Below are positions 50,850-63,730 of a stretch of DNA of 64,000 nt, piece by piece. The stretch comes from Parafrankia discariae (GTDB taxonomy: Bacteria > Actinomycetota > Actinomycetes > Frankiales > Frankiaceae). Below the pieces are notes generated by a model. It was not told the DNA's origin and ran no database searches. It saw only the letters and a list, made by a program, of their open reading frames with translations. Positions within the stretch are counted from its first letter, which is position 1. Each line of letters opens with the position of its first letter. The stretch covers positions 62,106-126,105 of the forward strand of contig NZ_KB891126.1 in NCBI RefSeq assembly GCF_000373365.1, written 5' to 3'. The position numbers and the translations under genes are program-made.

Positions 50850-51287
50850 TCAGGACGCTGTGACGGTCTTCATGAGCGCGTCGGCGGCCAGTTCGTAGCC
50901 GAGCGGGCCGAGTCCGGCGATGATTCCGGCGGCCAGCGGCGAGATGACCGATTCGTGCCTGAACGATTCGCGTGCCCACACGTTCGACAGGTGCACCTCG
51001 ATCCACGGCCGCGGGTAGTTGGCCAGCGCGTCGCGCAGGCTCCAGCCGGCGACCATGAGCGCGCCCGGGTTGACGACCGCGCCCACGGAGTCGTAGTTGT
51101 CCTGGATGGCATGGATCAGCTCACCCTCGGACTCGCGCTGGATCGACACGATCTTCCAGCCCCGGGCGGCGACGCGCTCGGCCATCGCCTCCTCAATGTC
51201 GCGGAGTGTGGCCGTTCCGTAGATCTCGGGCTGACGCCTGCCAAGAATCCCCAGGTTCGGGCCGTTCAGCAGGAGAAGATTGCTCAC
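50850..51287 (-). CDS. aroQ: Type II 3-dehydroquinate dehydratase family (presumed aminodehydroquinate dehydratase, RifJ role)
   Basis: 145 residues, GTG start with AGAGG upstream. The AroQ fold is clear: NGPNLGILGRRQPEIYG (Arg17/18, Tyr23), EVHLSNVWARESFRHES (His99, Arg110) and GIIAGLGPLGYELA. In an AHBA locus it should convert aminodehydroquinate to aminodehydroshikimate, the AHBA synthase substrate. The substrate loop that usually reads NxGxxTHTS is NPGALMVAGW here, so the conserved His (His81 in the mycobacterial enzyme) is Val79. This is either adaptation to an amino-substrate or a changed reaction. Divergent from the AHBA synthase gene. Confidence 0.9.
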   Translation of the reverse strand: MSNLLLLNGPNLGILGRRQPEIYGTATLRDIEEAMAERVAARGWKIVSIQRESEGELIHAIQDNYDSVGAVVNPGALMVAGWSLRDALANYPRPWIEVHLSNVWARESFRHESVISPLAAGIIAGLGPLGYELAADALMKTVTAS

Positions 51288-51623
51288 AGTGTACCTCTAC
51301 AAGGGTGTAGCGGATGTTCGGGCACGGTGTTTATAACAGGGCGCATGCTTCACCGCCGGCCAGGGCCGGCTGTGCGGCGCTGCTCCTACCCGCTCTCGGC
51401 GTGATTCGCAAGCTCGATGGTGGTGGGGGCCCGTGGTGTCGGGGTGGTGACAGCGTCGTCCGCGGCCATCCGGGAGAGCGCTGCCAGTTGCCTGGTGTTC
51501 CCGTAGTACCGTCCTTTGCGCACCGGGTTCGATGGATTTCGTCCGTCGAAGGCCGGCATGGGGGGGCTGTCGACATCGCCGCAGCCTCGCAGGCATCTGT
51601 ATCCGTCATGAAGGGTTAGGTAT
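51288..51623. other. Divergent promoter region of the AHBA locus
   Basis: 336 bp without a supported gene. CTACA-AGGG-TGTAG (51297-51310) is a 5-bp-arm repeat close to the dehydroquinase start. TTTATAAC at 51330-51337 is the only strongly AT-rich patch and may be a -10 region. AAGGGTTAGG precedes the AHBA synthase ATG. Confidence 0.45.
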
Positions 51624-52790
51624 ATGAGCGACAGTCGACGCCCGGCGCCCGAGTTTCCCGCCTGGCCGCAGTTCGACGGCGCGGAACGTGACGGACTGAT
51701 CCGCGCACTGGAACAAGGTCAGTGGTGGCGCATGGGCGGTGGCGAGGTCGACGCCTTCGAGCGGGAGTTCGCCGAGTACCACGGCTCGCGCTACGCCCTC
51801 GCGGTGACGAACGGCACCCACGCGCTTGAGCTGGCGCTGCAGGTGCTCGGGGTCGGCCCCGGCACGGAGGTCATCGTCCCCGGGTTCACGTTCATCTCGT
51901 CGTCGCAGGCCGCCCAGCGGCTCGGCGCCGTCGCCGTCCCGGTCGACGTCGACCTCGACACGTACTGCATCGACCCGGCGGCGGTGGAGGCCGCGATCAC
52001 GCCGCGGACGAAGGCGATCATGCCGGTGCACATGGCCGGCCACCTCTCGGACATGGACGCGCTCGCCAAGATCTCCGCGAACTCCGGTGTCGCGATCATC
52101 CAGGACGCCGCACACGCCCACGGCACCCGGTGGCAGGGCCGCAAGGTCGGCGAGCACGGCAGCGTCGCGGCCTTCAGCTTCCAGAACGGCAAGCTGATGA
52201 CGGCCGGCGAGGGCGGCGCGGTGACCTTCCCGGACGCCGAGCTGTACGAGCAGGCGTTCCTGCGGCACAGCTGCGGCCGTCCGCGCACGGACCGCCGTTA
52301 CTTCCACCAGACGTCCGGCTCGAACTTCCGGATGAACGAGTTCTCGGCGTCCGTGCTGCGCGCGCAGCTCGCCCGGCTCGGCGGACAGATCGACACCCGG
52401 GAGCAGCGCTGGCCGGTGCTGGCCGGCCTGCTGGCCGAGATCCCCGGTGTGGTCCCGCAGGGCCGCGACCCGCGCTGTGACCGCAACTCGCACTACATGG
52501 CGATGTTCCGGCTGCCCGGCGTCGGCGAGGAGCGGCGCAACGCCCTCGTCGACGCGCTGATCGAGCGCGGCCTGCCGGCGTTCGCGGCGTTCCGCTCGAT
52601 CTACCGCTCGGACGGCTTCTGGGAGACCGGCGCGCCCGACGAGACCGTGGACCAGATCGCCGCGCGCTGCCCGAACGTCGAGGCGCTGAGCGCGGACGGC
52701 ATCTGGCTGCACCACCGCACGCTGCTCGGCACCGAGGAGCAGATGCACGACATCGCGGCGATCGTCGCCGAGACGCTGGCGGACGCGTGA
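51624..52790 (+). CDS. rifK: 3-amino-5-hydroxybenzoate (AHBA) synthase
   Basis: 388 residues, a PLP enzyme of the DegT/DnrJ/EryC1 aminotransferase fold. It matches RifK closely from memory: APEFPAWPQFDGAER, ALEQGQWWRMGG (34-39), the VTNGTHALEL cofactor loop, DAAHAHG (Asp161 to the PLP nitrogen), FSFQNGKLMTAGEGG with PLP Lys190, and RHSCGRPRTDRRYFH. AHBA synthase aromatises 5-deoxy-5-amino-3-dehydroshikimate to AHBA and, with an oxidoreductase partner, may also act earlier on UDP-3-keto-glucose. AHBA starts ansamycins and mitomycins. The next gene (RifL type) overlaps by GTGA, as in rifamycin clusters. Confidence 0.96.
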   Translation: MSDSRRPAPEFPAWPQFDGAERDGLIRALEQGQWWRMGGGEVDAFEREFAEYHGSRYALAVTNGTHALELALQVLGVGPGTEVIVPGFTFISSSQAAQRLGAVAVPVDVDLDTYCIDPAAVEAAITPRTKAIMPVHMAGHLSDMDALAKISANSGVAIIQDAAHAHGTRWQGRKVGEHGSVAAFSFQNGKLMTAGEGGAVTFPDAELYEQAFLRHSCGRPRTDRRYFHQTSGSNFRMNEFSASVLRAQLARLGGQIDTREQRWPVLAGLLAEIPGVVPQGRDPRCDRNSHYMAMFRLPGVGEERRNALVDALIERGLPAFAAFRSIYRSDGFWETGAPDETVDQIAARCPNVEALSADGIWLHHRTLLGTEEQMHDIAAIVAETLADA

Positions 52791-54085
52791 CGACGACCGT
52801 GAGCTCGCCGGCCCCGGGGCCCGGCGACGCGCTCGTCACCGCGAGCGCCCTGGCGTCGTCGGGGGCGCTGGCGTCGTCGGAGGCGCTGGCTTCCACGGGG
52901 GCCCTGGCCGCACCGGTGGCCCTGGCGGCGCCGGCCGCCCCGCCCGCCGCCGCGTCCGCGGTGACCGTGGTCCGCGCGGCACCGGGCCGGGTGCGTGTCG
53001 CCGTGGTCGGGCTCGGCTGGGCCGGGCGGTCGATCTGGCTACCCCGGCTGCGTGACCACGCGGGGTACGACGTGGTCGCGCTGGTCGACCCCGACGCGGC
53101 GGCCCGGGCCGAGCTGGCCGCGGCGCTGTCCGCGCAGACACCGGTCGGGCTGTTCGACCACCCGGACGCGCTGCGTCGGGCAGAGGTGGACCTCGCCGTG
53201 GTGGCCGTCCCCAACCATCTGCACAGCTCTGTAGCCGCACGGTTGCTAAACGCCGGGGTTCCGGTCTTCCTGGAGAAGCCCGTCTGCCTCAGCACCGCCG
53301 AGGCCGACACCCTGGCCGCCGCCGAGCTGGCCGGCGGGGCGATGCTGCTGGCCGGCAGCGCGTCCCGTTTCCGGGCGGACACCCGCGCCCTCTACGAGCT
53401 CGCCGGGCGGCTCGGTGAGATCCGGCATGTGGACGTCTCGTGGGTGCGCGCCCGCGGTGTCCCCGACGCCGGCGGCTGGTTCACCCAGCGCAGCCTCGCC
53501 GGCGGCGGGGCGCTGGTCGACCTCGGCTGGCACCTGCTCGACGCGGTCGCGCCGTTCGTCGGCACCGACGGCTTCACCCAGGCCGTCGGGACCGTCTCCA
53601 GCGACTTCGTCGCCAACGCCGCCTGGGGCGCGGCCTGGCGACACGAGGACGCCGACCAGTCCCGGGCCGGAGGCGACGTGGAGGACACCGTCCGCGCGTT
53701 CCTCGTCGCGGGCAATGGTGTGTCGGTGTCGCTGCGCGCGAGCTGGGCGTCCCACCAGGCGCTCGACGCGACGGTGATCCGGGTCGAGGGCAGCGCCGGC
53801 ACGGCCGAGCTGCGCTGCACCTTCGGCTTCAGCCCGAACCGGCATCCCGCGTCCACGCTGACCTGGACGAAGGATGGCGTGGCCAGCGCCGTCGACGTCG
53901 TCACCGAGCCGATCGGCGCCGAGTACCGCCGTCAGCTCGACGAGCTTCCGGGGCTGCTCGCCGACGCCGGGCAGCACGGCCGGGCGGTCGCCCAGGCCCG
54001 GTCGACGATCGCCGCCATCGAGCGGGTCTACGCCTCCGCGCGGCCCCGCAACCACGCCATCCCGGCCGCCCGGGCCGGGCTCTGA
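52787..54085 (+). CDS. rifL: Gfo/Idh/MocA-family oxidoreductase (RifL type)
   Basis: 432 residues, GTG overlapping the AHBA synthase stop. Residues 1-67 are a low-complexity Ala/Ser/Leu extension with tandem ALASS/GALA repeats. The Rossmann domain starts RVRVAVVGLGWAGRSIWLPRL (69-89); VPNHLHSSVA and FLEKPVCLS (catalytic Lys of the EKP motif) follow; the C-terminal domain has LVDLGWHLLDAV. In the rifamycin pathway RifL is thought to oxidise UDP-glucose at C3 on the way to kanosamine, working with RifK. The extension is probably not essential; a later GTG near residue 59 could give a normal-length protein. Confidence 0.88.
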   Translation: MTTTVSSPAPGPGDALVTASALASSGALASSEALASTGALAAPVALAAPAAPPAAASAVTVVRAAPGRVRVAVVGLGWAGRSIWLPRLRDHAGYDVVALVDPDAAARAELAAALSAQTPVGLFDHPDALRRAEVDLAVVAVPNHLHSSVAARLLNAGVPVFLEKPVCLSTAEADTLAAAELAGGAMLLAGSASRFRADTRALYELAGRLGEIRHVDVSWVRARGVPDAGGWFTQRSLAGGGALVDLGWHLLDAVAPFVGTDGFTQAVGTVSSDFVANAAWGAAWRHEDADQSRAGGDVEDTVRAFLVAGNGVSVSLRASWASHQALDATVIRVEGSAGTAELRCTFGFSPNRHPASTLTWTKDGVASAVDVVTEPIGAEYRRQLDELPGLLADAGQHGRAVAQARSTIAAIERVYASARPRNHAIPAARAGL

Positions 54086-54190
54086 CACCGGAAGCGCCCG
54101 CCGTCAACCGGCCCGCCGCCGCCCACCACCACCCGCCGACCGGCAACCGCAACCCACCGCCGACCGCAACGCCCAGCCCTGGGGGAACCG

Positions 54191-54835
54191 ATGGTCACTC
54201 ACGCGATCGTCTTCGACCTTGACGGTGTGATCGTCGACAGCCACGCCGTCATGCGCGAGGCATTCATGATCGCCTACGCCGAGGTGGTCGGGGAAGGCCC
54301 CGCACCGTTCGAGGAGTACAACCGCCACCTCGGTCGGTACTTCCCGGACATCATGCGGATCATGGGCCTGCCGCTCGAGATGGAGGAGCCCTTCGTCCGG
54401 GAGAGCTACCGGCTCTCCCGGAAGGTCATGCTCTTCGAAGGCGTCCGCGAGCTGCTGGGCGACCTGCGTGAACGCGGCCTGCGGCTGGCGGTGGCGACCG
54501 GCAAGAGCGGCCCGCGGGCCCGCGCGCTGCTCGGTGAGCTGGAGATCGTCGACTACTTCGAGCGGGTCATCGGGTCCGACGAGGTGGCGAACCCCAAGCC
54601 GGCCCCGGACATCGTCCTGCTCGCCCTCGACGTGCTCGGTGCCGCGCCCGGCGAGGCGATGATGATCGGCGACGCGGTGACCGACATCCAGAGTGCCCGC
54701 GGCGCCGGGGTGCGGGCGGTCGCCGCCATGTGGGGGGAGACCGACGAGGCCGAGCTGTTGGCGGCCGGCCCCGACTCGGTGCTGCGCTCACCGCGCGAAC
54801 TCCTCGGCCTGCTCGGCGACCACCGGGTGGGGTGA
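54191..54835 (+). CDS. rifM: HAD-family phosphatase (RifM type)
   Basis: 214 residues, ATG with GGGGGA upstream. It has all four HAD motifs: AIVFDLDGVIVDS (nucleophile Asp9, Asp11), LRLAVATGKSG, the Lys in NPKPAPDIV, and MIGDAVTDIQSARGAG. The cap insertion FEEYNRHLGRYFPDIMRIMGLP fits the AHBA-cluster phosphatase group (RifM relatives). It likely removes a phosphate or nucleotide-derived group in aminosugar formation for the aminoshikimate route. It is the third gene of the rifK-L-M-like unit, 105 bp after the previous stop, and ends before a hairpin facing a convergent operon. Confidence 0.88.
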   Translation: MVTHAIVFDLDGVIVDSHAVMREAFMIAYAEVVGEGPAPFEEYNRHLGRYFPDIMRIMGLPLEMEEPFVRESYRLSRKVMLFEGVRELLGDLRERGLRLAVATGKSGPRARALLGELEIVDYFERVIGSDEVANPKPAPDIVLLALDVLGAAPGEAMMIGDAVTDIQSARGAGVRAVAAMWGETDEAELLAAGPDSVLRSPRELLGLLGDHRVG

Positions 54836-54905
54836 GGCGACGCGGCGGGGACGGCGTCGGGTGACCACCGCGCTGTGCGGACGGCGCGGTGTTCTGGACG
54901 GCCGT

Positions 54906-54940
54906 CGGCGGGACCCGGGTCTCCACGTCGGGCCCCGCCG
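54906..54940. terminator. Bidirectional terminator in the middle of the AHBA locus
   Basis: Arms 54906-54917 and 54929-54940 pair over 12 bp with one mismatch and an 11-nt loop. They lie between the convergent genes ending at 54835 and 55032. Confidence 0.55.
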
Positions 54941-55031
54941 GTCGTCATCGTGACCGGAATCCGTGCTCATGACCGGATCCGCGCCCGGAGTCTCCGCGCC
55001 CGGAGCCGGAGCCGTGGCGGCTGTCGCGGTG

Positions 55032-56117
55032 TCAGCCGGCCCGGTCGCGGTCGTCGCCGCGTTCCGCCTCGGCGTGCCGGGCGAGGATCACCGCGCCCGC
55101 CAGCGAGGACAGGCCGCCCAGCGCCGCCGCCCGGACGGACACCGGCGGATGGCCCGGTCGGGCCATCGTCCGGGCCTGTTCGGTGATCGTGTCGACGAAC
55201 CCGGGTAGCCCGTCCGCGAAGCCGCCGCCGACCACCGCGAGATCCGGCCGCACCAGCTCGGTCAGCCCGACCAGCGTGCCCGCGATCGCGCGCGCTGTGG
55301 CCCCGACCGCGGCGCGGGCCCAGCCCGCACCCGCCAACCAGGCCTCGCGCAGCTCCGGATAGGTCACCTCGGCAGTCACAGGCTCGGCAGTCACAGGTTC
55401 GGCAGCCGCGGGTTCGGCAGCCGCGCCCGGTTCGCCTGGCGCGTGCGGTTCGTCGGGCGCGTGCGGTCGGGTGGTGCCGTCCGGTCGGGTGGCGGCGCGT
55501 AGCTCGGTGGCCCGGCGCAGCGTGGCCGGTCCGGAGGCGAGGGCCTGCAGGCAGCCGTCCCGCCCGCACCGGCACCGCGGCCCGTCCAGCGCCACGATGA
55601 GATGGCCGATCTCGCACGAGCCGCGTGCGGTGCCGGGGCAGAGCCGGCCGTCGAGCACGATGCCACCGCCGATGCCCGTGCCGACCCCCACGTAGATCAG
55701 GTTCGCGCTGTCGGCATGGTCCGCTTCGGCGAGTGCGGCGAGGTCGCCGTCGTCGCCGAGCGCCACCGGCGCGCCCATGGCGAGCTCCCGCACCGCCCGC
55801 CCGAGGTCCAGACCCGTCCACGACGGTCGGCTCGGCCAGGTACTGACCCGACCGGACGGGTCGACCGTGGCCGGCATCGCGACGCCGACGCCGACCAGCC
55901 GTCCGCCCCACTCGCCGAGCAGCGCCGCCACGCCCGCCCCGAGGTCGCGCAGGTCGGTCTCGGCCGGCACGCCCGTCGACCACCGGAAGCTCGCCTCGCG
56001 GGGCGCACCGCCGACCGGCACCAGCCGCAGCGCGACCTTGGTGCCACCGACGTCGATGCCGAGATGTCCGATCGCGCCGGCGTGGCCGGCCGGGCCGGCC
56101 ACGTCGACGGGGCTCAC
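55032..56117 (-). CDS. rifN: ROK-family sugar kinase (RifN, kanosamine kinase type)
   Basis: 361 residues, GTG overlapping the upstream stop (GTGA). ATP-binding DVGGTKVAL lies near residue 22; VGVGTGIGGGIVLDG, EIGHLIVALDGPRCRCGRDGCLQALASG (the His plus CxCGxxGC zinc site of ROK proteins, with Gln where Glu is more common), and RPDLAVVGGGFADG follow. A Pro/Glu/Thr-rich, partly repeated insertion (about residues 218-252, with EPVTAEPVTAE) interrupts the domain. In AHBA pathways RifN phosphorylates kanosamine at O6, feeding aminoDAHP formation. Last gene of the convergent G-I-N unit. Confidence 0.88.
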   Translation of the reverse strand: MSPVDVAGPAGHAGAIGHLGIDVGGTKVALRLVPVGGAPREASFRWSTGVPAETDLRDLGAGVAALLGEWGGRLVGVGVAMPATVDPSGRVSTWPSRPSWTGLDLGRAVRELAMGAPVALGDDGDLAALAEADHADSANLIYVGVGTGIGGGIVLDGRLCPGTARGSCEIGHLIVALDGPRCRCGRDGCLQALASGPATLRRATELRAATRPDGTTRPHAPDEPHAPGEPGAAAEPAAAEPVTAEPVTAEVTYPELREAWLAGAGWARAAVGATARAIAGTLVGLTELVRPDLAVVGGGFADGLPGFVDTITEQARTMARPGHPPVSVRAAALGGLSSLAGAVILARHAEAERGDDRDRAG

Positions 56118-56986
56118 CGCGTGTCCGGCAGGCCGAAGAAGGCGCGGTACAGGTCGACCTGCTCGGCCAGCATGTGGATACCCGGATGGGTGGGCAGGCC
56201 GCGCTCGGCCGCCGCCCGCAGCAGCCGGGTACGCGCCGGCTTCATGATGATGTCCGCCACGACGCAGCCCGCCGGCAGCGCCGCGGGGTCGAACGGCAGC
56301 GGGTCGGCCGGGCGCAGCCCGAGCGGGGTGGCGTTCACGATCAGATCGACCTCCCGGGCCGGCGTGGCCGCCGCCGCACTCGCCCGACCGGGCCAGGGCG
56401 GCTCCAGCCGTCCCAGCAGCTCGCCCGAACGGGCGGTGTCGGGATCGTGGAGGGCCAGGTCCGCGCAGCCGGCCTCGAGCAGTGCCACCGCGATCGCGCT
56501 GCCGGCCCCGCCCGCACCGGCCAGGTGGACCCTGGCCCCCGCCACGCGATGCCCCGCGCGGGCCAGACCGCGGACGAAACCGGCACCGTCGAAGTTGTCG
56601 GCCAGCCACCGCCCGTCCGGCTCGCGGCGCAGGGCGTTCGCGCTGCCGCTGATCCGCGCCGCGGGGGAGCGGACGTCCGCCAGCTCCGCCGCGGCGACCT
56701 TGTGCGGGATCGTGATCAGGATGCCATCCAGATTGGCCATGGCGCACAGCCCGGCCAGCACGGTCGGGAAGTCACGCGGACGGGCGTGCACGGGCACCAG
56801 CACGGCGTCCAGGCCCGCCTCGGTGAACACCGGATTCACCAGCATCGGCGCCTGGACCTGCTCGACCGGGTCACCGACGACGGCGTACAGCCGGGTCGTT
56901 CCGGTGATCTCCCGGGGTCGTGTCGGCTCCCGCCGGGCCGGATCCGGTTCGGCCAGCGTCGCGGACCTTCGACCCGGGCCGGTCAT
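56114..56986 (-). CDS. rifI: Shikimate/quinate dehydrogenase family (RifI type)
   Basis: 290 residues, ATG overlapping the aminodehydroquinate synthase stop by four bases. The substrate domain contains VVGDPVEQVQAPMLVNPVF, ILITIPHKVAAAELAD (catalytic Lys96) and NFDGAGFVRGL (Asp133). The NAD(P) fold has LAGAGGAGSAIAVALLEAG; NATPLGL and GIHMLAEQVDLYRAFFG complete the pattern. RifI-type proteins reduce aminodehydroquinate/aminodehydroshikimate-like compounds and are not strictly needed for AHBA; here it may recycle a shunt product. Its first 30 residues are a polar extension. Confidence 0.9.
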   Translation of the reverse strand: MTGPGRRSATLAEPDPARREPTRPREITGTTRLYAVVGDPVEQVQAPMLVNPVFTEAGLDAVLVPVHARPRDFPTVLAGLCAMANLDGILITIPHKVAAAELADVRSPAARISGSANALRREPDGRWLADNFDGAGFVRGLARAGHRVAGARVHLAGAGGAGSAIAVALLEAGCADLALHDPDTARSGELLGRLEPPWPGRASAAAATPAREVDLIVNATPLGLRPADPLPFDPAALPAGCVVADIIMKPARTRLLRAAAERGLPTHPGIHMLAEQVDLYRAFFGLPDTR

Positions 56987-58077
56987 GCCGCCTCGCGATC
57001 CATCGTGCCCAGCGTCGCGACCACCAGATCGGCCGGGACGTCGGGCACGAGCCGAGGGCCGTCCGCGGAGTCGAGGACGAAGGCGAGGCCGGTGTTCGCG
57101 GACCCACCGGTGTTCGTGGACTTCTTGTCCAGCCGCATGACGGCGACGAGCGCCGCCGCGTCGGCCCCGGCGGGCAGCGCCGTCGGCAACCCGTAGTGCG
57201 AGACCACCTCGAGGTGTTCGTCGGCGCGCCGGTCGTCGATCAGACCCAGCGCGGCGGCGAGCCGGCCGGCGAAGACCGTCCCGACCGCGACGCCCTCGCC
57301 GTGCCGCATCTCGAAGCCGGTGACGATCTCCAGCGCGTGACCCAGGGTGTGGCCGTAGTTGAGGATGTGGCGCAGGCCGGAGTCGCGCTCGTCGCGGGCC
57401 ACGACCGAGGCCTTGAGCGCCACGCTGCGCGCGATCTGTTCCTCGACCGGACGTCCCCGCAGGTCGCCGGCGCCGATGAAGTGCGCTCGGGCGATCTCGC
57501 CGTAGCCGTTCGTCCGCTCGCGGGCGGGCAGCGTCGCCAGGTAGTCGGTGTCGCACAGCACCGCGCTGGGCTGCCAGTACGCGCCGACCAGGTTCTTGCC
57601 GGCGGGCAGGTTCACCGCCGTCTTGCCGCCGACGCTCGCGTCGACCTGCGCCAGCAGCGACGTCGGAAGGTGGATCACCGCGATCCCGCGATGGTAGAGC
57701 GCCGCCGCGAGGCCGACGACATCGGTTGTGGTCCCGCCGCCGCAGGACACCACCGCGTCCGTGCGGGTCAGGCCGAACGCCGCGAACCGCTCGCAGAGCC
57801 CCTGGACGTTGGCCAGGTTCTTGTCCGGCTCGCCGTCGCGGGCGGCGACCCGCAGCGCCGGAACCCCCGGGTCGGGCACCGCGTCGTCCTCGGGCCGGGC
57901 CGAGACGATCACGACCCGGGACGCGCCGATCCGGGCGACGACCTCCGGAAGCGCGCGCCGGACGCCCGGTCCGATGTCGACGGGATAGCCGCGGTCGCCG
58001 AGCTCGACCCACACCCGGTGCGTCCCGGGTCCGCCGGCACGGTCGCCGTGCCCGAGTGTCTCGGACGGTGCCGTCAT
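56983..58077 (-). CDS. rifG: 3-dehydroquinate synthase family (aminodehydroquinate synthase, RifG type)
   Basis: 364 residues, ATG at 58077 with GGAAGGA upstream. The DHQS fold is complete: DGEPDKNLANVQGL, SCGGGTTTDVVGLAAALYHRG (113-131), HLPTSLLAQVDASVGGKTAVNLPAGKN (137-162), GYGEIARAHF (zinc Glu194) and HILNYGHTLGHALE (zinc His). It should cyclise aminoDAHP to aminodehydroquinate. GYGEIAR differs from the GLAEVVK-type sequence usual in primary AroB, in line with a secondary-metabolic role. First gene of the rifG-I-N-like operon, divergent from the A-PCP-TE gene. Confidence 0.92.
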   Translation of the reverse strand: MTAPSETLGHGDRAGGPGTHRVWVELGDRGYPVDIGPGVRRALPEVVARIGASRVVIVSARPEDDAVPDPGVPALRVAARDGEPDKNLANVQGLCERFAAFGLTRTDAVVSCGGGTTTDVVGLAAALYHRGIAVIHLPTSLLAQVDASVGGKTAVNLPAGKNLVGAYWQPSAVLCDTDYLATLPARERTNGYGEIARAHFIGAGDLRGRPVEEQIARSVALKASVVARDERDSGLRHILNYGHTLGHALEIVTGFEMRHGEGVAVGTVFAGRLAAALGLIDDRRADEHLEVVSHYGLPTALPAGADAAALVAVMRLDKKSTNTGGSANTGLAFVLDSADGPRLVPDVPADLVVATLGTMDREAA

Positions 58078-58150
58078 CACGGTCCTTCCGGTGTCCGCTC
58101 GGCCGGTCGCGGATGTCAGGGACACGACAGCGCCGGCTGAGTCACATGGT

Positions 58151-58250
58151 GATATCCGGAGACGAGTCTGCACCCCGGGATCTCTGATAGCCCGAGTGGG
58201 GGAGTGGTTGGAGTTGTCCGGTCGTATCATCGGCGATGCTTCCGGATATC
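58151..58250. promoter_or_regulatory. Divergent promoter region with a widely spaced 10-bp inverted repeat
   Basis: GATATCCGGA at 58151-58160 and its exact complement TCCGGATATC at 58241-58250 flank the AT-rich middle of the 209-bp gap between rifG-like and A-PCP-TE genes. The second site also contains the palindrome GGATATCC. Two copies could be bound by one regulator with DNA looping. No regulator gene is adjacent. Confidence 0.45.
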
Positions 58251-58286
58251 CAGAAACGGAGCGAGAGCGGCCTGGGGGGTCGAAAC

Positions 58287-61085
58287 ATGGTCGGAACGCA
58301 TCCGTTGGCCGTGCTGGCGGCGAATCTCGCGGAACCCGACCCGACAATCGTGGGGCGGTTCTCTCGGATCGTCACAGCGCGTGCCAACGACATTGCGGTA
58401 CGCGATGAGAAAACCGTACTGAGCTATGCCGAGCTGGACTCGCGTTCATCCGCGCTGGCTCGTTCGCTTGTCGTCGAGGGGGACGGCGGCAACATCGGGA
58501 TCCTGCTCGGCCAGGGAGCGCCCGCGATCGTCGCGATGCTGGGCGCGCTGAAGGCCGGGCGGCCGTTCGTGCCGCTCGACCCGATGCTCCCCGCGGCACG
58601 GCTGGGGCAGATCCTGCGGCTGGCGGGGGTCGCCACCTGCGTGACCGACAGCGCGCACACCGAGCTGCTCGCCGCCGCCCGGCTGGAGGCGGCCGACACC
58701 GGTTCCACGCCCGGTACCGCGACTGGTTTCGGGCCAGGGTCCGGCCGGGGGGCGGAGCGCACCCTGCTCGTCGACGGCGAACTACCCGCCGCGACCACCG
58801 AGACCGACGACGACCTGCTGCCGGGCCGGCGGGCGCTGCCCACCGGTCCTGCCTTCCTGGTGTTCAGCTCCGGCTCCACCGGCGTGCCCAAGGGCGTCGT
58901 CTGGCGGAACCGGACCGTGATGAAGGACCTGGACGCGGGCATCGAGCGGGTCGGGATGAACGCCGCCGACCAGGTCGCCCTCGTGCTGCCGACCGCGTTC
59001 GCCGCCGGCATCACGGTCATGTTCTGGGGGCTGCTCTGCGGCGCCACGCTGCACCCGTTCGACCCGCGGACCAGCGGGATCGGCGCGATGCCCGGCTGGC
59101 TCGTCGACCGCGCCATCACCACGCTGCACCTCACCCCGTCGCTGGTGCGCGCGCTGACCGGTGCCGCCGGGCCCGGCCTGACCCTGCCCGACCTGCGCGC
59201 GGTCACCAGCTCCGGCGAGGCCGTGTACGGCCGGGACGTCGCCGCCCTGCGCGCGCTACTGCCTACAACGTGCACGTTCTACAACTGGTCCGGCTCGACC
59301 GAGACCGCCTCGCTGGCCTTCTTCCCGGTCAGATCCGGCGACGAGATTCCGGCCGGACCGCTGCCGGCGGGATGGGCCGTCGACGGCAAGGACATCGAGA
59401 TCGTGGACGAGCACGGCAAACCCGTGCCGGATGGTGCCACCGGCGAAATATCAGTTACGTCAAGGTATCTTTCCGGCGGCTACTGGAACGCCCCCGAGAT
59501 GACCGCGCAGCGATTTCGGCCGGTACGTCTGTGTGGTGATTCCACGACGGACGGCTCACGGGATTCCAGTGCGCTGGTTTCCGATGACCAGGCCCCGGCC
59601 AGCCCGGCCGGCGGCCTGCCCGTATCCGGTGTCACCGTCACCGGTGAGATCATCCTCGGCGACCTGGGGTCCACCGAGGTCGTGTACCGCGGCGGCGATC
59701 TGGCCCGGCGGCGCCCGGACGGCTGCATCGAACTGCTCGGCCGCGCCGACGCGGCGGTGAAGATCCGCGGCTACCTGGTCGAGCCCGCCGAGATCGAGAC
59801 CGTCCTGCTCACCTCGCCGGACGTCCTCGAGGCCGTCGTCGTCGCCGAGCGGGTCGAGGGCGAGCCACCGCGGCTGATCGCCTACGTCGTGTGCGCCACC
59901 GCCGTGAAGTCGGCGACCGTGGCGATCCGCGGCCTGCTACGGGAGAAACTGCCCGCCTACATGGTGCCCTCCTCTGTGGTCCTGCTCAACGAGCTGCCCC
60001 GCAACGAGCGCGGCAAGATCGACCGACCCGCGCTGCCGGCGCCGCCGCCCCGCCCACCGGCCCGCCGTCCCACCGGGCGCAGCCACTGGGAGTTCGCGCT
60101 GTGCGACCTGTTCGCCCAGATCCTCAAAGTCGACGAGGTCGGCGTCGACGACGACTTCCTCGAGCTCGGCGGAGACTCGCTGCTCGCCCAGCAGCTCCTG
60201 AGCGAGATCGCCACCCGCCTGGGCGTGACCCTGCCGACCTCGGTGCTGGTGGAGGCGCCGACAGTCGCCGCGCTGGCCGTCCGGGTGGCGGGCGCCCAGC
60301 GAGGCATCCCGACCCATCCGACCTGCGTCCCGCTCAACGTCGACGGCGCCCGCCCGCCGCTGTTCTGCGTCGCCGGCGCGGGCGGGCTCGCCATCAACTT
60401 CCTCGGACTCGCCCGCCTGCTCGGCTCCGACCAGCGGGTCTACGGCCTGCAGGCACAGGGGATGGAGAACCGGGCACTCCCCGACTGGAGCGTCGAGCGC
60501 CACGCCCGGCGTCACCTGGCCGTGCTCCGCGTGATCCAGCCGGCGGGTCCCTACTACCTCGCCGGCTTCTCGTTCGGCGGGCTGGTCGCCCTGGAGATGG
60601 CGCACATGCTCGCCGCCGCCGGCGAGGAGGTGGGGATGCTGCTGCTGCTCGACACCACGCTGCCCCGCTCGGCCCAGTCCGCCGCCGGAGCCCGCCCCGG
60701 CGGCGACCCCGGCAACGGGGGACGAATCACCCGACTGCTACCGGACAAGTTCCCGCTGCCGAACGCGTCCAAGCTGCGCAAGGCGGTCCGCCTGCCACTG
60801 ACCGGACTCGTCCGCTACCCCGGCCTCGCCCAGTTCGACGTGTTCTTCGACCAGGCCCGGTTCATCGCCCAGTCGTACCGGGTGCGGCCGTACGCCGGGC
60901 GGACGATCCTCTACCTCGCCGAGGACAACCCCAAGTCCGGCCGGGACGAGTGGCCCACGCACCTGACCGGTGACTCGACCATCGTCACCGTCCCCGGCGA
61001 GCACCACACGATGCTCAACGAGCCGAACGTCGCGGTGCTGGCCGCGGACATGCGCGCCCGCCTCGGAGAGTCGATGAAGCTGTAA
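58287..61085 (+). CDS. NRPS-like A-PCP-TE enzyme (adenylation, carrier, thioesterase)
   Basis: 932 residues. ATG at 58287 follows GGGGGG; ATG at 58236 lacks a ribosome binding site. Adenylation domain ~20-585: A3 FSSGSTGVPKG (194-203), A5 NWSGSTE (333-339), A7 YRGGDLARRRPDG, A8 GRADAAVKIRGY and A10 RNERGKIDR with Lys577. The A4 region reads PTAFAAGITVMFWG: Ala239 stands where the alpha-amino-binding Asp lies, which favours an aryl or other non-alpha-amino acid such as AHBA. Carrier domain ~600-672 has LELGGDSLL (Ser631). Thioesterase ~690-930 has GFSFGG (Ser762), an Asp in LLLLDTT and a His in GEHHTML. There is no condensation domain. An insertion at ~415-462 precedes A7. Confidence 0.92.
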   Translation: MVGTHPLAVLAANLAEPDPTIVGRFSRIVTARANDIAVRDEKTVLSYAELDSRSSALARSLVVEGDGGNIGILLGQGAPAIVAMLGALKAGRPFVPLDPMLPAARLGQILRLAGVATCVTDSAHTELLAAARLEAADTGSTPGTATGFGPGSGRGAERTLLVDGELPAATTETDDDLLPGRRALPTGPAFLVFSSGSTGVPKGVVWRNRTVMKDLDAGIERVGMNAADQVALVLPTAFAAGITVMFWGLLCGATLHPFDPRTSGIGAMPGWLVDRAITTLHLTPSLVRALTGAAGPGLTLPDLRAVTSSGEAVYGRDVAALRALLPTTCTFYNWSGSTETASLAFFPVRSGDEIPAGPLPAGWAVDGKDIEIVDEHGKPVPDGATGEISVTSRYLSGGYWNAPEMTAQRFRPVRLCGDSTTDGSRDSSALVSDDQAPASPAGGLPVSGVTVTGEIILGDLGSTEVVYRGGDLARRRPDGCIELLGRADAAVKIRGYLVEPAEIETVLLTSPDVLEAVVVAERVEGEPPRLIAYVVCATAVKSATVAIRGLLREKLPAYMVPSSVVLLNELPRNERGKIDRPALPAPPPRPPARRPTGRSHWEFALCDLFAQILKVDEVGVDDDFLELGGDSLLAQQLLSEIATRLGVTLPTSVLVEAPTVAALAVRVAGAQRGIPTHPTCVPLNVDGARPPLFCVAGAGGLAINFLGLARLLGSDQRVYGLQAQGMENRALPDWSVERHARRHLAVLRVIQPAGPYYLAGFSFGGLVALEMAHMLAAAGEEVGMLLLLDTTLPRSAQSAAGARPGGDPGNGGRITRLLPDKFPLPNASKLRKAVRLPLTGLVRYPGLAQFDVFFDQARFIAQSYRVRPYAGRTILYLAEDNPKSGRDEWPTHLTGDSTIVTVPGEHHTMLNEPNVAVLAADMRARLGESMKL

Positions 61086-61100: not shown

Positions 61101-61133
61101 CGCCGAGAGAGGGCGGCATAGTCTCTCTCGGCG
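61101..61133 (+). promoter_or_regulatory. Perfect 10-bp inverted repeat overlapping the exporter start
   Basis: CGCCGAGAGA (61101-61110), 13-nt loop, TCTCTCGGCG (61124-61133); the last base is the G of the GTG start. It could attenuate transcription, hide the translation start, or bind a protein. Confidence 0.5.
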
Positions 61134-63007
61134 TGATACCTGAGTCCATGCCCGGCCCCCGCCCGCCGGGCGGGCCGGTGGACGTCCCGTCGACCAGGGT
61201 GACCCGCCTGCACGCCCGGGTGGTGGCGAAACTGACCGGCGTCGACGAGTCCGCCCGCAGCCTGCGCTTCTTCGCCGACCAGGGGCGGGTGATCACCGCC
61301 CTGGTCGGCCTGTCGGTCATCGGTTCGGTCGCGGTCGCGGCCGGCCCGTTCCTGCTGCGCCACCTCATCGACGACTCCCTGCCCACCGGACAGGTCGGCG
61401 ACCTCGTCGTCCCGGTCCTTCTCCTGTGCGTCCTGCTGGTGTTCGAGTCGGCCGTGCTTGCCACCCGAATGGCACTCATCGCCCGACTCGGCGCCGTGAT
61501 CACAGTGCGGACCCGGCAGGCGATCAACGCCCATCTGCAACGCCTGCCCTTCGGCTTCTTCCCCCGCAGTCAGCAGGGCGAGGTGATGACGGTGATGTCC
61601 ACCGACGTCATCACCGCCCAGTACGCGGTCTCCGCCGTTGTCCAGGCGGTGATCTGCCGGGTGGCGGACATCGCCGTCGGTACCGCCGTCGTCTTCGTGC
61701 TGGACTGGCGGCTCAGCCTGGCCGTCATGGTCTTCGCCCCCGCCACACTCCTGATCATGAAATCCGGTCGTCGCCGTCTCGCCGGCATCTCCCACCGTCA
61801 GCGAGAGCTCGACGGCCAGCTCATGGCCCAGGTGGCGGACACCTCCTCGGTCTCGGGCGCGCTGCACGTCCGGCTGTTCGACCGGGCGGACCACGAATGC
61901 GACCGCTTCGACGCCGCCGCCGCCGAACTGCTGGACGCCAGCCGCGAGCAGGCCCAGCTGACCTCGCGGGTTCGCCTCGTCGTGAACCTCGGCATCGTCA
62001 TGACGATGACGGTGGTCGTCACCCTCGGCGCCTGGCTGGTCTCCACCGGACACACCTCGCTCGGTACCGTCGCCGCGCTCGGTGGGGCGCTCCTCGTCTC
62101 CTTCGGCCCGCTCGCCTCCGCCGTCGAGCTCCGTTCCGAGCTCTCCAGCGCCGGCGCGTCGTTCCGTCGGATCTTCGCCCTGCTCGACCTCCCGGCGGAC
62201 ACCGCGGGCCCTGCGGTAATCGCGGACTCTCCGCGGGTCCCCGCCGCGTCGGCGCCGGATCTCACCCTTGACGACATCTGGTTCTCCTATGACATCGCCA
62301 CCACCACCCTGGACGGCGACGACGCGGCATGGAACCTGCGCGGTGTCACCCTGCGGGTCGCGCCAGGGTCGACGACCGCGGTCGTCGGGGCCAGCGGCGC
62401 CGGCAAGACGACCATCACCTACATCGCCAGCGGCATCCACCGTCCCCAGCACGGCGCCATCCGGCTTGGCGGCGTGGCCCTGGACGAGATCCCGTCATCC
62501 GAACTGCATTCGCTGATCGGGGTCGTTCCCCAGGATCCGCACCTGTTTCACGACACCATCGCGGCGAACCTGCGCTACGGACGGCTCGACGCCACCGACG
62601 ACGAACTGCGCGAGGCGCTCGACGCGGCCAATCTCTCGGCGCTGCTCGACCGGCTGCCGGACGGGCTGCGCACCCGTGTCGGCGCCCGCGGCTACCGGCT
62701 CTCCGGCGGCGAGCGCCAGCGGCTCGCCATCGCCCGTGTCCTGCTGCAGTCGCCCCGGGTGCTGATCCTCGACGAGGCCACCTCGGCGCTGGACACCGTC
62801 TCCGAGGCGGCCGTCCGTGCCGCGCTCGACCGGCTCGCGGTCGGCCGGACCTGCCTGGTCATCGCGCACCGGCTCTCCACCGTGATCGACGCCGACCGCA
62901 TCTACGTCATGGACCACGGCCGGGTGGTCGAGGACGGCACCCACGGTGAGTTGCTCGCCGACGGTGGCGCCTACGCCCGCCTGTACCGCCCGGTCGCGGC
63001 GGGTTGA
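61133..63007 (+). CDS. ABC exporter, fused membrane and ATPase domains
   Basis: 624 residues from GTG 61133 (ATG at 61148 possible). About six membrane helices lie in residues 55-330 (for example VITALVGLSVIGSVAVAAGPFLL and LVVPVLLLCVLLVFESAVL), with the coupling segment LQRLPFGFFPRSQQGEVMT. The ATPase domain has Walker A GASGAGKTT, signature LSGGERQRLAIARVLL, Walker B VLILDEATSALD and H-loop IAHRLST. It is an MsbA-like half-transporter that would act as a homodimer to export a drug or lipid. It starts 47 bp after the A-PCP-TE gene on the same strand, so it probably exports the product or gives self-protection. Confidence 0.92.
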   Translation: MIPESMPGPRPPGGPVDVPSTRVTRLHARVVAKLTGVDESARSLRFFADQGRVITALVGLSVIGSVAVAAGPFLLRHLIDDSLPTGQVGDLVVPVLLLCVLLVFESAVLATRMALIARLGAVITVRTRQAINAHLQRLPFGFFPRSQQGEVMTVMSTDVITAQYAVSAVVQAVICRVADIAVGTAVVFVLDWRLSLAVMVFAPATLLIMKSGRRRLAGISHRQRELDGQLMAQVADTSSVSGALHVRLFDRADHECDRFDAAAAELLDASREQAQLTSRVRLVVNLGIVMTMTVVVTLGAWLVSTGHTSLGTVAALGGALLVSFGPLASAVELRSELSSAGASFRRIFALLDLPADTAGPAVIADSPRVPAASAPDLTLDDIWFSYDIATTTLDGDDAAWNLRGVTLRVAPGSTTAVVGASGAGKTTITYIASGIHRPQHGAIRLGGVALDEIPSSELHSLIGVVPQDPHLFHDTIAANLRYGRLDATDDELREALDAANLSALLDRLPDGLRTRVGARGYRLSGGERQRLAIARVLLQSPRVLILDEATSALDTVSEAAVRAALDRLAVGRTCLVIAHRLSTVIDADRIYVMDHGRVVEDGTHGELLADGGAYARLYRPVAAG

Positions 63008-63033: not shown

Positions 63034-63630
63034 TCATGTGCGGGATCCCGCCGGACGGGCACGCACGTGCAGGCGTTCCCCCTGCGGGCCGAACAGGCTG
63101 ATGGCCTCAACCGGCTCCGGGCCCGGATTGCTGAACGCGTGCGGGACGTGTGTGTCGAACTCGGCGACCTCGCCTGCGGTCAGGATGACTTCCCGGTCGC
63201 CCAGAAGCAGGTGCAGCCGGCCGGACAACACGTAGATCCATTCGTAGCCCTCGTGCGTCTGCGGTTCCCTCGCACAGGTCGGCCAGCCGGGCGGAAAGAT
63301 CATTTTGAATGACCGCAGCCCGCCTGGACGCCTCGTCAGCGGTACGACGGTCATTCCGTTGCGCTCGACCGGCCGCGGGAGCACCCGTGGGTCGCCCGTC
63401 GGCGGCGTGCCGACGAGCTCGTCGAGCGGAACCTGGTAGGCCTTCGCGAGAGGGAGCAGCAGCTCCAGAGTCAGCCGGCGCTGCCCGGACTCCAACCGCG
63501 ACAGCGTGCTGACCGAGATCCCGGTGGCGCGGGAGAGCGCGGGAAGAGTAGTCCCGTTCTGCTTGCGCAGCGCGCGCAGCCGCGGCCCCACCGCGGCCAG
63601 CACAGCCTCAACGCCCTGTTCGGCTCCCAC
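63034..63630 (-). CDS. XRE-family regulator with C-terminal cupin domain
   Basis: About 198 residues; GTG at 63630 or 63636. The HTH is VGPRLRALRKQNGTTLPALSRATGISVSTLSRLESGQRRLTLELLLPLAKAY (about residues 13-64). A cupin barrel follows (about 120-190): HEGYEWIYVLSGRLHLLLGDREVILTAGEVAEFDTHVPHAFSNPG, with metal-ligand-like His and Glu. Such proteins sense a small molecule or polyamine-like ligand and control an adjacent enzyme. It lies 100 bp behind a PLP aminotransferase gene on the same strand, more likely its partner than the convergent AHBA exporter. Confidence 0.9.
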   Translation of the reverse strand: MGAEQGVEAVLAAVGPRLRALRKQNGTTLPALSRATGISVSTLSRLESGQRRLTLELLLPLAKAYQVPLDELVGTPPTGDPRVLPRPVERNGMTVVPLTRRPGGLRSFKMIFPPGWPTCAREPQTHEGYEWIYVLSGRLHLLLGDREVILTAGEVAEFDTHVPHAFSNPGPEPVEAISLFGPQGERLHVRARPAGSRT

Positions 63631-63730
63631 AACCACCCCACCACTCTCGCCCTGAATCTGCCGTCCTGGCGCGGTAGCCGTCGGTGGCCGCCGCCAGGGA
63701 CGCCGGGGCATGCCCAGCGACTGACCGTCT

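Follow-up and report, generated by a model that had tools for sequence, protein, structure and literature searches.

Genetic organization of the AHBA locus

The window, as we call the whole 64,000-nucleotide stretch of Parafrankia discariae DNA that was analysed, includes a set of RifJ-, RifK-, RifL-, RifM-, RifN-, RifI- and RifG-like genes spanning nucleotides 50850-58347, next to a gene coding for an NRPS-like A-T-TE protein. The genes of this region, with the basis of each assignment in parentheses, are the following.

50850..51287, minus strand: type II dehydroquinase, RifJ-like (Pfam/NCBIfam)
51624..52790, plus strand: AHBA synthase, RifK-like (E value 8e-195 to the solved AHBA synthase 1b9h, the RifK structure)
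52787..54085, plus strand: Gfo/Idh/MocA oxidoreductase, RifL-like (Pfam)
54191..54835, plus strand: AHBA-synthesis-associated HAD phosphatase, RifM-like (TIGR01454, 342 bits, cut-off 247)
55032..56150 (ORF limits), minus strand: ROK sugar kinase, RifN-like (PF00480)
56114..57166 (ORF limits), minus strand: shikimate-dehydrogenase-like protein, RifI-like (PF08501)
56983..58347 (ORF limits; the true start is further in), minus strand: 3-dehydroquinate-synthase-like protein, RifG-like, divergent from the A-T-TE gene (PF01761, PF24621)
58287..61085, plus strand: A-T-TE NRPS-like protein, 932 amino acids from the conserved start (the ORF, 58236-61085, codes for 949)
61133..63007, plus strand: ABC exporter, MsbA-like, downstream of the A-T-TE gene (PF00005, PF00664)
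63034..63711, minus strand: HTH-cupin regulator (PF01381, PF07883)

A homologue of the ABC exporter is found downstream of the A-T-TE gene in four of the six other Parafrankia copies (L044, L045, L047 and L061, the exceptions being L046 and L048). The sole class II DAHP synthase gene of the genome lies outside the AHBA cluster (L125, G000:C102:59314-60609) and as a consequence the aminoDAHP step may be run by this primary-metabolism enzyme.

The A-T-TE protein

The amino terminus of the related proteins is MVGTQPL, and translation of the window gene from the ATG at 58287 renders MVGTHPL (common pattern MVGTxPL); therefore this ATG, rather than position 58236, is probably the real start. Counted from it, the alanine at the Asp235 position discussed below is residue 239, as in the original prediction, and the same residue is 256 in the 949-residue ORF. 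The protein includes the Pfam domains AMP-binding (46-417), AMP-binding_C (519-594), PP-binding (622-681) and Thioesterase (707-929), all in one chain and with no condensation domain, and can thus be considered a free-standing A-T-TE. Its catalytic features are:

60015..60017, plus strand: Lys594, the A10 catalytic lysine (position 517)
60177..60179, plus strand: Ser648, phosphopantetheine attachment site of the T domain (LGGDSLL)
60570..61007, plus strand: TE catalytic residues Ser779 (GFSFGG), Asp806 and His923/924 (GEHHTML), by motif reading

The presence of Lys594, Ser648 and the Ser779/Asp806/His923-924 set means that there is no sign of a dead enzyme, and a degraded gene was ruled out as the A, T and TE motifs are all intact. 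The AlphaFold model has a pLDDT of about 90 across most of the core.

Specificity pocket of the A domain

Residue Asp235 normally grips the amino acid in A domains that activate amino acids. The pocket code of the A-T-TE protein, which rests on sequence alignment to solved A domains, was read from the following features.

58989..59030, plus strand: A4 segment PTAFAAGITVMFWG (ungapped alignment to FDVSVWE of Txo1)
59001-59003, plus strand: codon of Ala256, at the Asp235 position
59013-59015, plus strand: codon of Thr260, at the Trp239 position
59127..59315, plus strand: further pocket residues His298 (278), Thr324 (299), Ser326 (301), Trp351 (322), Ser359 (330) and Leu360 (331)

It had been proposed that the alignment of the A4 segment with the FDxSxWE-type segment of amino-acid domains is free of gaps, and that Ala and Thr replace Asp235 and Trp239. 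HMMER alignments to Txo1 and Txo2 (FDVSVWE) and to LgrA (FDGSALD) confirmed all three points: the A-T-TE segment reads FAAGITV, Ala256 pairs with the Asp of Txo1, and Thr260 pairs with its Trp. The remaining positions were taken from the same alignments (HFVPS/HLTPS, SGEA and NLYGPTE/NWSGSTE), and the full code is A256 A257 T260 H298 T324 S326 W351 S359 L360 K594, or AATHTSWSLK. The code linked to albicidin is AVKYVANDAK. In the model a helix begins at residue 256. The A5 motif is YNWSGSTETASL, in which Ser354 stands where amino-acid domains carry Pro.

No acidic residue is present among the nine variable pocket positions, and these positions are identical in the seven copies found in six Parafrankia genomes, one of which has two; all seven carry Ala at 235, the position of Asp in GrsA. 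The copies share 68 to 95% pairwise identity and 64% of the core columns are invariant anyway, so that the chance of a fully identical pocket is about 0.015 (hypergeometric P = 0.015). The loss of the anchor for the α-amino group, as read from the alignments, argues strongly against an α-amino acid, and the substrate is very probably of another kind. The A-T-TE protein seems to be a functional enzyme that acts on a carboxylic acid lacking an α-amino group.

Distribution of A-T-TE proteins and AHBA cassettes

The A-T-TE gene adjoins AHBA-cassette genes in 6/6 Parafrankia genomes. The full cassette is found beside it in the window and at L044, L045, L046 and L061. Both copies of Parafrankia sp. 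EUN1f (G004) lie at contig ends, one with the M-, N-, I- and G-like genes (L047) and the other with the M-like gene only (L048); as the two RifM-like genes that they adjoin are near-identical, a duplication of the K-L-M plus A-T-TE set is suggested.

The AHBA cassette is also present in all 13 Frankia (g2) genomes, and the stretches read around it (L062-L073, L080) included neither an A-T-TE gene nor an adenylating enzyme resembling that of the window. Away from the cassette, A-T-TE proteins with the code AATxxxWSLK were read in 11 of these 13 genomes; their position 278 is Gln, Leu, Pro or Ala and their position 301 is Cys or Ala. Relatives with the code AATHTCWSLK, one pocket residue off AATHTSWSLK, were found in three g7 Frankiaceae genomes (G029, G030 and G034), in which no AHBA synthase was detected at E values up to 1e-60. 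As the same Ala/Thr/Trp/Ser/Leu pocket is thus found where AHBA synthase is missing, it cannot be seen as an adaptation specific to AHBA.

Relatives in the class were searched for in 150 genomes using the A region as query; the order-level set contains Frankiaceae genomes only, and L093 was excluded from the family counts. The alignment could be read for 33 free-standing A-T-TE relatives, and none of them has Asp or Glu at 235. The loss of the anchor can thus be considered a trait of the A-T-TE family and, judging from the sequences compared, is older than the AHBA link or independent of it. The AHBA-linked proteins, the Frankia and g7 AAT proteins, and a subfamily with Ile235 (ISNVMVSTAK and kin) form three fully supported clades in the tree. 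Of the sequences compared, those of the AHBA-linked clade are the only ones to combine His278 with Ser301. This combination matches H691/S722 of the EntF serine domain, the pair named for recognition of the Ser side chain (PMC11253843). It is consistent with a substrate bearing a hydroxyl group, but it is weak evidence because the change is a single event on the tree.

Members of the paralogous subfamily with the code ISNVMVSTAK or nearly so (L089, L094 and L124) adjoin a gene for an FMN-dependent dehydrogenase of the α-hydroxy-acid type (Pfam-tested at L089). A distant A-T-TE from another family of the class, with a different pocket (L117:7177-11805), is tail to tail with a gene for a BenE benzoate transporter. 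The two annotated matches examined in a plasmid search were large multidomain NRPS proteins rather than free-standing A-T-TE proteins.

Relation to known A domains

The PABA-specific A domains (albicidin, cystobactamid, lapcin) are, as is that of the A-T-TE protein, of the NRPS type with Ala in place of Asp235, the residue by which they are recognised (PMC8837603). The published PABA DNA motif decodes to F-A-x-x-x-K-E, with Lys at 239 (PMC8837603, the lapcin paper), and these domains belong to multimodular lines, whereas the Parafrankia protein has F-A-A-G-I-T-V, with Thr at 239, and is a lone A-T-TE.

Ansamycins and mitomycins start from AHBA, whose activation there falls to PKS loading domains or to the CoA ligase MitE (PMC8621148). 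The RifA-type loading domains and MitE, the mitomycin AHBA-CoA ligase, share with the A-T-TE protein a position beside an AHBA cassette and a presumed activation of AHBA. However, RifA-type loading domains sit in PKSs, and there is no PKS beside the A-T-TE gene; its product falls outside the aryl/acyl-CoA-ligase branch and its PDB neighbours are amino-acid NRPS domains.

The aryl-acid domains of the DhbE/EntE type also lack Asp235, but DhbE carries Asn at 235 and an A5 motif of its own (PMC11253843), neither of which is found in the A-T-TE protein, and both sequence and fold ranking place the latter closer to the amino-acid NRPS domains. Among the matches listed by Foldseek and VIA-align, the solved folds nearest to the A-T-TE model are those of Txo2, SyAstC, PheA and an engineered TycA, and DhbE and other aryl-acid AMP ligases are absent from the best 50 listed.

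The bacterial and fungal quinone and furanone synthetases (EchA, DatA, RalA and the atromentin and polyporic acid synthetases) have the same A-T-TE organization. Arylpyruvates are the substrates of the A-T-TE enzymes that have been characterised (PMC9379647, PMC10316625), whereas the Parafrankia gene is adjacent to genes for AHBA biosynthesis. A domains that activate α-keto acids have been reported to lack Asp235, as is the case for the Parafrankia protein.

Possible substrates of the A domain

The original prediction was that the missing Asp235 fits activation of AHBA, whose amine is on the ring. The loss of the anchor, the linkage to the cassette and the precedent of Ala235 in PABA domains stand in its favour; the step from the pocket to AHBA does not hold by itself, since g7 relatives have this pocket with no AHBA synthase and Ala235 also fits keto and hydroxy acids. 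Ala235 as proof of AHBA was thus ruled out by relatives with a near-identical pocket. What counts for AHBA is the combination of Ala235, a pocket with no acidic residue that is identical in seven copies, and adjacency to the cassette in all six genomes, to which the AHBA synthase very close to 1b9h, the phosphatase above the TIGR01454 cut-off and the PABA Ala235 marker can be added. The AATHTCWSLK relatives, the 13 Frankia cassettes with no adjacent A-T-TE, the missing Lys239 of the PABA motif, the known activation of AHBA by enzymes of other kinds (PKS loading domains, a CoA ligase) and the low identity (26%) to the PKS loading domain of the same genome count against it. On the gene context AHBA is the best single candidate, and we consider its chances to be about even.

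The main rival to AHBA activation is that the A domain activates an α-keto acid (an arylpyruvate) or an α-hydroxy acid and that AHBA is the nucleophile for release by the TE. A-domains for such acids carry Ala, Gly, Val or Ile at 235 (PMC11253843), and the A-T-TE quinone and furanone synthetases include DatA, which condenses phenylpyruvate (PMC9379647). The A5 change from Pro to Ser354 points the same way, StsA having Met there on one reading of its numbering (PMC11253843), and so do the dehydrogenase gene beside the ISNVMVSTAK subfamily and the Frankia and g7 relatives with no evident precursor genes nearby, as expected for a substrate from primary metabolism. This reading is nevertheless unlikely, although it deserves serious consideration: the A-T-TE/AHBA cluster showed no transaminase that would form an arylpyruvate, and the polar set His278/Thr299/Ser301 hardly suggests a side chain that is simply aryl or aliphatic.

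A substrate from primary metabolism could also be an aminobenzoate or hydroxybenzoate (PABA, anthranilate, 3- or 4-hydroxybenzoate), activated by the unlinked relatives too, with AHBA as a second building block. It would account for the near-identical pocket in genomes with no AHBA synthase, and Ala235 is the mark of PABA domains, but it leaves unexplained why every Parafrankia copy stays beside an AHBA cassette; the BenE gene adjoining the distant L117 protein would fit a benzoate, but this is one instance only and the pocket of L117 is not the same. We therefore consider such a benzoate improbable. Activation of an α-amino acid whose amine is held by another residue is very improbable: while overall sequence and fold are nearest to amino-acid NRPS domains, the nine variable pocket positions include no acid and none of the 33 family members has Asp or Glu at 235.

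The A domain is of the NRPS amino-acid type and has probably been re-tooled for a carboxylic acid lacking an α-amino group. If AHBA is the substrate, the A domain would adenylate the carboxyl of AHBA supplied by the adjacent cassette, and the thioester would be loaded on Ser648 of the T domain. The Ser-Asp-His TE could then link AHBA units to one another by their ring amine or hydroxyl groups, or transfer AHBA to another nucleophile, and the product may be exported by the ABC transporter encoded next to it. This would define a third mode of AHBA activation, in which an NRPS-type A-T-TE leads to a PKS-free AHBA oligomer or conjugate and is conserved with its own cassette in all Parafrankia, a proposal to which we give somewhat less than an even chance. 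Parafrankia are soil and plant-associated actinobacteria, and the tie between an AHBA cassette and a lone NRPS-type A-T-TE in each of their genomes would suggest that they make AHBA products of an unknown class; activation of AHBA would also imply a specificity code that prediction tools may lack. A missing Asp235 alone should not be taken as an aryl-acid signature.

Other AHBA clusters

A further AHBA synthase gene of this genome (G000:C1:23348-24466) is accompanied by RifL- and RifM-like genes and located beside a PKS gene whose first module includes an AMP-binding loading domain (L078, G000:C1:12001-32000). This is probably an ansamycin-type cluster. Its loading domain belongs to the aryl/acyl-CoA-ligase branch, the best PDB matches being malonyl-, benzoate- and feruloyl-CoA ligases; it is 26% identical to the A domain of the A-T-TE protein, and its A4 segment is PLFHSLSH.

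Outside the Frankiaceae, AHBA synthases were detected in three of 297 genomes of the class (E values up to 1e-120). A PKS loading domain of the L078 type (67-71% identical) is found near the clusters of two of them, and no A-T-TE gene was found near the AHBA clusters of these three genomes. The literature searched yielded no paper on AHBA clusters in Frankia or Parafrankia. One Frankia genome has a gene for a tryptophan-halogenase-like flavoprotein close to its AHBA cassette (L073:16384-18033).
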